Shown piece after piece: positions 25,177 to 27,811 of a DNA stretch of 64,000 nucleotides. The position numbers and the translations under genes were made by a program. The number at the start of each line of letters is the position of its first letter. The first letter of the stretch is position 1. This DNA is from Gammaproteobacteria bacterium (lineage in GTDB: Bacteria; Pseudomonadota; Gammaproteobacteria; Burkholderiales; Sulfuricellaceae), in assembly GCA_018823025.1 (NCBI GenBank), contig JAHJJI010000024.1:1-64000 (forward strand). The letters run 5' to 3'. Below the pieces are notes generated by a model. The model did not search any database and was not told the origin of the DNA. It saw only the letters and a list, made by a program, of their open reading frames with translations.

Positions 25177-25281
25177 GCCTGAAATGACAGAATCATGTTT
25201 CTGATTAACTTTGAACGTAAAGTTGAGGGGCGCCGCGCTTCTGCGGCGTCCCGCTCGAACGCAAGGTTAGATTGCATTGGT

Positions 25282-25842
25282 TTATTTACCCGTATGGCCG
25301 CCAATCATGAACGCACTTTTGATCTTGTCGAAGTCCGGGCGAGCAGCCTCGTTTTCAACCTCGATCCTATAGCGACCCTTTGGCAATTCCACTAGATCAA
25401 TGATTTGATGCTTCGTGCTTTTGAGATCATGGCCTGCTCTACAAATTGATGCATATGTGCGGTTAACGATAATCTGTTTATCGGCAATTTTAGAAATACG
25501 TATGTGCAGGCGTATGGGCTTTCCTAGAGATTTTTGTTGTGATTCATTGAAATCTTCGATTTTCTTTGCCTTTGGCCCATAGCACTCAAAGTCATATTGT
25601 GCGCCAACGAGAGTATCTGCGAGGCGATCTTCTAGCGAAGGGAACGTGTGATTTAGGTACAAAAAATAACGAATGGGCACTGGGTATTCTGGAGCTTCGA
25701 ATTCAGCAATAAGTATCTGTCCTGGTTTAGAAAAATCAACTGGTACGGGCGGCAGAAGCGCGGGGATGCTGCAATAGCCTGAGAGCCAAAGAACGGCGCC
25801 AAGAATTGGCTTTGAGCATGCTGAATAAAGGATCGGGCTCAT
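25282..25842 (-). CDS. Putative lipoprotein, possibly DUF5625-like, AT-rich
   Basis: A 186-residue protein from the Met at 25842, with a hydrophobic N-terminal segment ending in a lipobox-like LSGYC. The mature part (VDFSKPGQILIAEFEAPEYPVPIRYFLYLNH, later KPIRLHIRISKI and LPKGRYRIEVENEAARPDF) looks like a beta-sandwich and recalls the DUF5625 family; that link is from memory and weak. The track ORF extends to 26016, but the extra part has no signal and reads as non-coding. Base composition is clearly more AT-rich than neighbouring genes and no ribosome site is evident, which suggests acquisition. It abuts the repeat element at 26024. Confidence 0.55.
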   Translation of the reverse strand: MSPILYSACSKPILGAVLWLSGYCSIPALLPPVPVDFSKPGQILIAEFEAPEYPVPIRYFLYLNHTFPSLEDRLADTLVGAQYDFECYGPKAKKIEDFNESQQKSLGKPIRLHIRISKIADKQIIVNRTYASICRAGHDLKSTKHQIIDLVELPKGRYRIEVENEAARPDFDKIKSAFMIGGHTGK

Positions 25843-26023
25843 TTGCAATCTAACAGTTAATATACGGACGTTTGCGCCCGGACATTTTTTAATAATACGG
25901 ACACCCATAATGCCATCGTAATTGGTTGATGTGCAATGAATTTGAAATTTTGCGACCGTATAATAATCAATATCACTGACAACACCAGCACAGAGTATTT
26001 TATAAAGCATTCGCACATGTTGG

Positions 26024-26601
26024 GTTTTGTGCGCTACGCGCGCATGTTTAGATGCCGGGGGCTGCCCGGCAGCAGGTTACTTTATTTTGCTTGTCCAAAA
26101 TACAAGTAACCAAACAAAAAGACACCCTGCCGCGCCGGCCCTGCGGGCTACCTTCGGTTTGATGGTCAAATTGGGCGGCTGCGCAACTCGCCCTAGCGGG
26201 GTGCACACCCCGCACCCCACTGCGGAGCTCGAACAGTGCTCGCCTTCATCCCAGTTTGACCGTCAAACCGAAGCGGCGCAGAAGGGGATTTAGGTTTTGT
26301 GGGCGGAGCCCGTGTTTTGGGTGCTCTCCCCGCAGGGGAGAGCGGGGTTGGTTTTGTTTTGCTTTTTTGGTCCCCTTTGGCCGCCGCCGAGTAGCGCAGC
26401 CAAGCTGGGGGATTTCTGCGAGGACTGTTTGAGCGCGTAGCGCGAGTTCCGCAGCAGCCCGGCTTGGCGAGCAACGCAGGGAACCCCGAAGGGGCGGTGG
26501 AGAGGGGCGGCTTTCTTTGGTTCCTTTCTTTGGCCGTTTAAAGAAAGGGACTAGCCCGCCGGGCTACCCCCGGCAACCAAACACCCGCGTAGCGCACAAA
26601 C
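26024..26601. repeat. 0.58-kb element with terminal inverted repeats and nested hairpins
   Basis: The left end (TTTTGTGCGCTACGCG, then GATGCCGGGGGCTGCCCGG) recurs inverted at the right end (CCGGGCTACCCCCGGCAACC, then CGCGTAGCGCACAAAC), giving imperfect terminal inverted repeats of about 60 bases. Inside are a hairpin GGTTACTT/AAGTAACC (26075-26111), a 24-base inverted repeat differing at two positions (26152-26175 with 26250-26273, CTTCGGTTTGATGGTCAAAT) and a hairpin CCTTTCTTT/AAAGAAAGG (26523-26548). No transposase is encoded, and the small ORFs on both strands look accidental. Similar sequence (GCCGCCGAGTAGCGCAG, TTTCTTTGGTT) is familiar to me from intergenic DNA of beta- and gammaproteobacteria. 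It resembles a non-autonomous mobile element. Confidence 0.75.
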
Positions 26602-26707
26602 CCCCATCCAGGAAACAGCAAACCTGCCCCGCTTCATCCATCCTCGTTCTGGTCTATGCTGTAGAAATTATTAAGGGTTTCCACATCGTTTTCGGCTGGA
26701 GGATCAA

Positions 26708-27811
26708 ATGAATAAGCATGCCTTGCACATTGCCCTGGTTACCGCATTTGCCAGTTATCTTCCGTCTGCGATTGCAGCGCCAGTCAATTACGAAATGAAC
26801 CTGCGCACCTATTCTGGACTAGGTGCGGGAGGCGCCACCGGCATGATGTCGGCGATGTTCGGCGGCAAGGGGAATATTTCCAGGCAGATGGATCTGCGGC
26901 TGGCCAATCCTGCGGATATTCCTGGCGGCTATAGTGCCGAGCACATCGTGCCAGAGGGCATGCGTATCGGCCCATCGCTGCCGCTGAAGGGCGAGCGGCG
27001 CGGCACGGGGAGTGGCGGCAGCTCGGAGTCCGAGCAGCCCGAAGGCAAGGTGTTGATCTATTGGGGATGCAGCGAGACCGTGCCGAAAGGGCAGCCGGAA
27101 GTGATCGACCTGAAGGCCATGAGTAGCCGCCTGTCGCCGGAAGTGGCTGCGATGGCCCAGCAGAGCCGCAAGCGTAAAGGCGGCGGCGATGGCGGTGAAA
27201 CTCTGCCGCCGCGCACGCTGTGGTGGCCGTATGGCGACAACGCTTTCAGCGGAATTCCCACCGAAGCCTCTGTGGTCGGCGAGCATGTGGTGAAGGCCAG
27301 CTTCATGCAGCAGGAGATTCGCTATGCCCTGGACAAGGACATGGATTTTCTCGAAGCGCTCAACTTCAAGTCCGGCAGTTCCGATCTCAAGGCGGCGATT
27401 CCCCTGAAATGGGATCAGCTTTCCCGTGCCAAAGGCTATAACCTGAATGCCGTTGGTGCAGTCGGCGATAATGAAGTCATCATCTGGATGGCGGCCAGGA
27501 ACAAGAATCCGATGCTGCCGGGCAGCCAGAGTAGCTGCACCATTCCGGCCGGCATTTTCCAGAAGACATCAGGCGCCATGGCAATGGCGGAGGCAGTCGG
27601 GCCGACCAGGGGATTTGCCTATCCGCCGCTCAAGCCCGGCGAGAAGAAACCGCTGATCTGGACCGCGAAAGTGCGGGTGAACGGGTTCGATAATCTGATG
27701 CTCGGGATGGGGGACGTCGCCAGGGATGCGGCCACCGATGCGGCTGCGGATTCAGTGGTGCCGGGCGGAGGCAGCGTGCTCAAGTCGCTCAAGGGCCTGT
27801 TCGGAAACTGA
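26708..27811 (+). CDS. Hypothetical exported protein
   Basis: A 367-residue protein with a signal peptide (LHIALVTAFASYLPSAIAAPVNYE; cleavage after AIA). The mature chain contains glycine- and methionine-rich segments (GLGAGGATGMMSAMFGGKG), a GKVLIYWGCSETVPKGQPEVIDL strand region, the aromatic PRTLWWPYGDN motif and a C-terminal Ala/Asp-rich stretch (MGDVARDAATDAAADSVVPGGG). I do not recognise the family. AGGATC lies 5 bases before the ATG. It stands alone after the repeat element and convergent with the next minus-strand gene. It is probably periplasmic or surface-exposed. Confidence 0.72.
   Translation: MNKHALHIALVTAFASYLPSAIAAPVNYEMNLRTYSGLGAGGATGMMSAMFGGKGNISRQMDLRLANPADIPGGYSAEHIVPEGMRIGPSLPLKGERRGTGSGGSSESEQPEGKVLIYWGCSETVPKGQPEVIDLKAMSSRLSPEVAAMAQQSRKRKGGGDGGETLPPRTLWWPYGDNAFSGIPTEASVVGEHVVKASFMQQEIRYALDKDMDFLEALNFKSGSSDLKAAIPLKWDQLSRAKGYNLNAVGAVGDNEVIIWMAARNKNPMLPGSQSSCTIPAGIFQKTSGAMAMAEAVGPTRGFAYPPLKPGEKKPLIWTAKVRVNGFDNLMLGMGDVARDAATDAAADSVVPGGGSVLKSLKGLFGN

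Follow-up and report, generated by a model that had tools for sequence, protein, structure and literature searches.

The window analysed here, a stretch of 64,000 nucleotides from a Sulfuricella-type genome (G000), holds a real 0.58-kb non-coding element whose best boundaries, at about 26023–26600, follow from its inverted repeats, from its copies in the same genome and from the alignment of copies; it has no strand and represents the short, cargo-free form of the repeat. Outside it lie an A+T-rich lipoprotein-like gene assigned to DUF5625 by Pfam (25282–26016, minus strand), which differs in the two closest relatives, and, behind this gene, an attC-like site (25200–25265, minus strand) resembling an attC of the integron in G011; gene and site likely form an integron gene cassette beside the element. 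Downstream of the element, a conserved 367-aa gene (26708–27811, plus strand) matches nothing in Pfam or NCBIfam with a meaningful score. The window copy occupies the same site in G000, G005 and G011, three species, and therefore gives no sign of a recent move; the gene between it and what we take to be an EamA-like gene differs among the three (the names EamA and, below, folB are our own reading of translations and alignments, with no family search behind them).

An intact integron integrase (IntI) with attC-like sites is encoded in the same genome (L388/L394; G000:C99:57002–57943), and N-terminal integrase remnants abut several copies of the element (L396, L053, L061, L397, L369), including, weakly, the G011 copy at the window locus. 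The element seems to lie within or next to a decayed integron, and its arrival may have disrupted the integrase gene.

Architecture of the element

The first-pass annotation had described imperfect inverted ends, an internal 24-base inverted repeat and a hairpin close to each end, all of which are present. The left terminal inverted repeat (GGTTTTGTGCGCTACGCG..GATGCCGGGGGCTGCCCGGC; 26022–26070, plus strand) and the right one (26558–26604, minus strand), both delimited by inverted repeats and copy alignment, pair in two blocks that sum to about 50 bp, an outer one with 95% complementarity (26022–26040/26586–26604) and a second with 81% (26039–26070/26558–26589); the inner 24-nt repeat (26152–26175/26250–26273) matches at 92%. 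The AT-rich hairpins lie at 26075–26111 on the plus strand (GGTTACTTTATTTTG..CAAAATACAAGTAACC, recognised by eye and in the fold of the element) and at 26520–26551 on the minus strand (arms 26520–26531/26540–26551). On the plus strand the element folds to −315.5 kcal/mol, where dinucleotide shuffles average −247.8 ± 7.1 (z = −9.55) and none of 100 folds as well; the opposite strand gives z = −9.11.

These features belong to a simpler plan, namely two inverted copies of one structured unit of 205–270 nt around a 75-nt spacer, the left and right halves being 78% identical over 218 aligned positions. The left unit (26053–26294, plus strand) runs from a TGCCGGGGG start through the AT-rich hairpin, a AAAGACACCC stretch and a large hairpin formed by the 24-nt repeat (26152–26273, plus strand) to a CAGAAGGGGA end; the large hairpin holds a conserved internal loop, AACTC (26185–26189) facing CTCGAACA (26228–26235), on the plus strand. 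The right unit (26370–26580, minus strand) is the inverted copy, with its loop motif at 26426–26448 (minus strand; TGTTTGAG..GAGTT when read on the plus strand). The spacer (26295–26369, no strand) contains two G+C hairpins (26298–26314 and 26322–26344) and occupies the position at which related elements carry a gene, and a GTGCGC..GCGCA hairpin lies outside the unit pair. Three small ORFs within the element (88, 93 and 64 aa), already said to be devoid of coding character, match no family in Pfam or NCBIfam. Of 19 full copies, only 9, 3 and 0, respectively, keep them open over 90% or more of their length, so that a protein-coding reading was rejected.

Conserved pairing within the unit

The unit was defined by aligning 20 full copies with their flanks and then treating the halves as separate units. 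From the outside inward, it comprises TGCCGGGGGYWGCCCGGC, the AT-rich hairpin, an A-rich stretch ending in CACCC or GACCC, a short G+C hairpin and the large hairpin, in whose internal loop AACTC faces CTC[AG][AG]ACA, and it ends near CAGAAGGGGA. The loop motif is present in 59 of 59 non-redundant units. This constancy is partly circular, as the motif was part of the pattern by which many of the loci were retrieved; partner units and Sulfuricella copies were obtained independently of it.

With unit types mixed in the full alignment, RNAalifold yielded a poor consensus, and the stems were therefore tested directly, as counts of pairing rather than probabilities, given that shuffling arms between units ignores their relatedness. 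Across the 59 units, the stem outside the loop keeps 5.05 of 7 positions paired versus 4.45 with shuffled arms (0 of 500 shuffles as good), and the inner stem 3.73 of 4 versus 2.98 (0 of 1000; when 7 distinct pair types are considered, 1 of 1000 shuffles does as well), while the AT-rich hairpin has a perfect stem of at least 9 bp in 49 of 59 units and in 0 of 59 after shuffling. The hairpins hence keep pairing while their sequences change, that is, their stems covary. Such pairing would result alike from folded RNA, from single-stranded DNA folded on itself and from cruciform DNA. As regards known RNA families, the window element has no Rfam match at the gathering score and the best cmscan matches are chance ones, e.g. 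to microRNA models; the covarying hairpins keep a structured non-coding RNA, the other proposal of the first-pass annotation, in play as an improbable alternative.

Dispersal

Copies of the element are scattered over chromosomes. Its own genome contains 28 matches at about 13 places; many of them lie at contig ends, as is usual for a repeat, and the best other copy is 93% identical over 573 nt. The earlier proposal, which the lack of any second copy would have refuted, withstands this check. Matches were found in 11 of 11 congeners and in 29 of the 61 genomes searched in all. An exact scan for the motif gave, among the matches listed, Gallionella, Sideroxydans, Ferrigenium, Thauera, Azoarcus, Aquabacterium and Silvimonas, together with records titled Gammaproteobacteria or Moraxellaceae, which agrees with the initial impression that parts of the element are familiar from intergenic DNA of these groups; the folded repeat occurs in numerous Betaproteobacteria and in some Gammaproteobacteria. 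The loci come from pattern matches and from the nearest genomes, a sample that is not exhaustive, and many records are metagenome assemblies. Plasmid and phage collections returned no match to the element, and a phage or plasmid origin was rejected, and a literature search that covered few subscription journals returned nothing matching the element sequence or the gene cassettes described next.

Unit pairs and their gene cargo

Pairs were counted at the loci named in the motif scan and in stretches from six genomes of Gallionellaceae, which are iron-oxidising relatives, with units less than 4 kb apart. Among 72 neighbouring pairs, 64 are in the +− arrangement with terminal repeats outward, 6 are −− and 2 are −+, and the gap between paired units is bimodal, measuring either 80–280 nt or 627–3783 nt. 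The long-gap class usually brackets one accessory gene and sometimes two. This cargo has a median GC content of 43.5% versus 59.8% for the flanks, being lower in 38 of 38 cases, and the 42 cargo proteins scanned are mutually unrelated. Their Pfam matches include Mrr, RloB, AAA_21, HNH, DUF3800, DUF4145, RelA_SpoT and TIR/SEFIR, one matches GapS1 in NCBIfam (3.3e-132), and PADLOC recognises AbiLi with AbiLii, bSEFIR, a type IV restriction enzyme and several candidate systems. PADLOC models match at least 9 of the 42 cargo proteins versus at most 6 of 42 control flank proteins, which is suggestive of an enrichment in defence functions. No transposase occurs among the 42 apart from an IS110-family protein, the same at both loci, nested in cassettes L116 and L204. 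An attC-like site is found in 0 of 39 Gallionellaceae cargo cassettes, and their reading as integron cassettes was rejected; this concerns the cargo cassettes and leaves aside the DUF5625 gene next to the window copy.

The cargo cassettes share an inner frame, made up of an A-rich linker next to the unit, a hairpin of the GGTGGGCAACAAGTTGCCCACC type and GATAGCCAAAACAATTCGACTCCGGTACATTGG, the latter usually 5' of the gene, with unrelated genes starting shortly after. The shared AATTCGACTCCGGTACATT motif was considered as a recombination site and rejected, its TACCTT variant being found also in loci that have no units. The AATTCGACTCCGGTACCTT variant lies away from units at L310–L338, as an inverted pair in some (L321, L327).

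REP-type palindromes stand outside the units. Those of the CCGTTCG type, which rather than GTAG make up the majority of the outer REPs at cargo cassettes, point outward on 36 sides and are inverted on none; GTAG heads point outward on 19 sides and are inverted on 1. GTAG REPs with heads outward at both ends mark 4 of 32 cargo cassettes and 0 of 44 short forms, and the window copy has no GTAG head.

Empty sites

Queries made of joined flanks were searched against relatives, and insertion-free orthologous sites were found for three cassettes, L123 (in several genomes), L162 (in four) and L128 (in one), the missing block including the outer REPs. Of target-site duplications, a check suggested in the first-pass annotation, none is clear at these three sites, where flanks only about 75–90% identical preclude defining exact ends or a duplication. 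A site lacking the short form exists in G005, where the two flanks of a G011 site are retained (92% and 97%); the block absent there comprises 1.2 kb of accessory DNA besides the element. The sister copy in G011 starts at ..TTTGTGCGCTTCGCG, right on the last codon of the neighbouring gene (L373 versus L361).

The folB site carries a cassette in one relative (L119), a half cassette with other cargo in another (L376) and, at L379:490–545, a footprint consisting of an outer REP and two joined tips, the interior being lost. Accessory genes are also present there in the company of no units at all (L377, L378); the folB site is a general gene-gain hotspot. No movement within one species was observed in the sampled loci.

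RAYT genes

Most of the genomes searched encode RAYTs, several of which have REPs of their own, and in several genomes they form REPtrons with outward GTAG REPs on both sides (REPtron-type loci are L080 and L088 in G000, and L093, L101 and L293). One REP beside a RAYT of the window's own genome shares 21 identical nt with the right end of a sister copy in a congener. None of 60 RAYT loci has a unit at a significant E-value, and a unit-flanked RAYT as the autonomous form was rejected on this basis; G005, G111 and G150 have no Y1_Tnp match though the element or cassettes are present in them. An autonomous partner transposon with these ends was not found among the 42 cargo proteins or in the plasmid and phage collections, a search that was not exhaustive.

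Discussion

We consider, with a probability of roughly 60%, that the window element is a non-autonomous chromosomal mobile element whose unit pair can carry single-gene cassettes, here present in its short form with no cargo. The earlier suggestion of a non-autonomous mobile element is supported by dispersed intergenic copies, inverted ends, the lack of coding content and the insertion-free orthologous sites; what that annotation did not see is the pair of units and the gene-carrying pairs elsewhere. The anatomy of the unit, its inverted and conserved pairing, the two size classes, the gene cargo between units in Gallionellaceae and the orientation of the outer REPs give the proposal its present shape. 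An enzyme acting in trans, possibly a RAYT-type HUH transposase, would recognise folded single strands of the units and mobilise the unit pair as one object; a gene between the units would travel along with the pair, and insertion would leave no evident target duplication. The likeliest class of enzyme would be an HUH Y1 transposase of the RAYT/TIRYT type, which we put forward tentatively, since no RAYT is bracketed by units and three genomes have no Y1_Tnp match. Further points in favour of the proposal are the low GC of the cargo, the RAYT genes bracketed alike by outward GTAG REPs and the REP that shares 21 nt with a sister copy; further points against it are that no movement was observed within a species, that the identity of the empty sites is too low to give ends or a target duplication, that most outer REPs are of the CCGTTCG type, that 1.2 kb of accessory DNA is missing together with the short-form element, and that the window copy keeps its site in three species.

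A more far-reaching and rather doubtful version would see in the units recombination ends dedicated to a single-gene cassette system not described so far, in which REP, unit, inner hairpin and promoter-proximal motif form a folded-DNA frame, unrelated and often defence-like genes are exchanged as in integron cassettes but with neither attC nor IntI, and the window element is an empty cassette.

That the element is a classic MITE or mobile insertion cassette, whose ends are the terminal inverted repeats of a DDE transposase acting in trans and whose hairpins are incidental, seems unlikely to us. It is short and non-coding, has inverted terminal repeats of about 50 bp and several dispersed copies, and passenger genes lie between such ends; against this, no target duplication was seen at the empty sites (with flanks about 75–90% identical), the 42 cargo proteins include no transposase with these ends, nested IS110 excepted, and the inverted ends are unusually long (200+ nt), internally structured and built of covarying stems. 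It is similarly unlikely that dedicated mobility is lacking altogether, and that the dispersed repeats serve homologous or illegitimate recombination as points of entry, with foreign genes accumulating beside them at gene-gain hotspots. The folB site, which gained genes with no unit (L377, L378), and the window copy, which stays while the genes beside it change between species, speak for this account; the inverted orientation of 64 of 72 pairs, the two size classes and the common inner frame beside unrelated genes are left unexplained by it.

We regard as improbable that the units act primarily as RNA, be it as terminators, insulators or a trans-acting RNA, with dispersal as a secondary matter. 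The stems covarying around the internal loop, six terminator-like sites versus 1.7 expected and a shared motif upstream of many cargo starts are in its favour; yet Rfam gave no match, a search for a promoter-like site found none, and the hairpins are near-symmetric, folded DNA explaining the covariation equally well. It is very unlikely that the folded unit is an attC-like substrate of the integron integrase, despite the intact IntI, the abutting integrase remnants and the attC-like site at 25200–25265, as that site type is absent from the cargo cassettes (0 of 39) and the unit ends have no RYYYAAC/GTTRRRY boxes in their sequence.

If the preferred reading of a mobile unit pair is right, intergenic repeats that are usually passed over as junk would, in environmental proteobacteria, form a frame that delivers accessory genes one at a time, antiphage genes among them; looking between unit pairs would then be a simple route to new defence and accessory genes, and the element would be a tractable system in which to ask whether transposases of the REP type move palindromes alone or genes too.

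Among known systems, REPINs and BIMEs are likewise non-autonomous, intergenic and made of two inverted palindromic modules. REPINs usually measure roughly 0.1 kb, whereas the present element measures about 0.6 kb and its modules are longer than 200 nt and may have a gene between them. Integron gene cassettes also hold one gene each, A+T-rich and mostly unknown or defence-like, within a common frame, but unit cassettes have no attC (0 of 39), carry inverted units on both sides and are dispersed rather than arrayed; MITEs flanking integrons have been described in Acinetobacter (PMC10969869). MITEs and mobile insertion cassettes, the latter already described (PMC5444012, PMC6304161), share with the element inverted ends, the absence of a transposase and passenger genes between the ends, and differ from it in that its ends are very long and structured, with no target duplication seen and no partner IS found. 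In REPtrons and TIRtrons, REPs or long terminal inverted repeats stand on both sides of a RAYT or TIRYT gene (PMC3733652). The cassettes differ from these in that their cargo is an accessory gene, not a transposase, and in that no RAYT among 60 loci was seen to have the 200-nt unit around it; they resemble them in that one gene lies between inverted palindromic repeats belonging to dispersed families, and in that the outer GTAG heads point outward, as they do in the RAYT loci of these same genomes.
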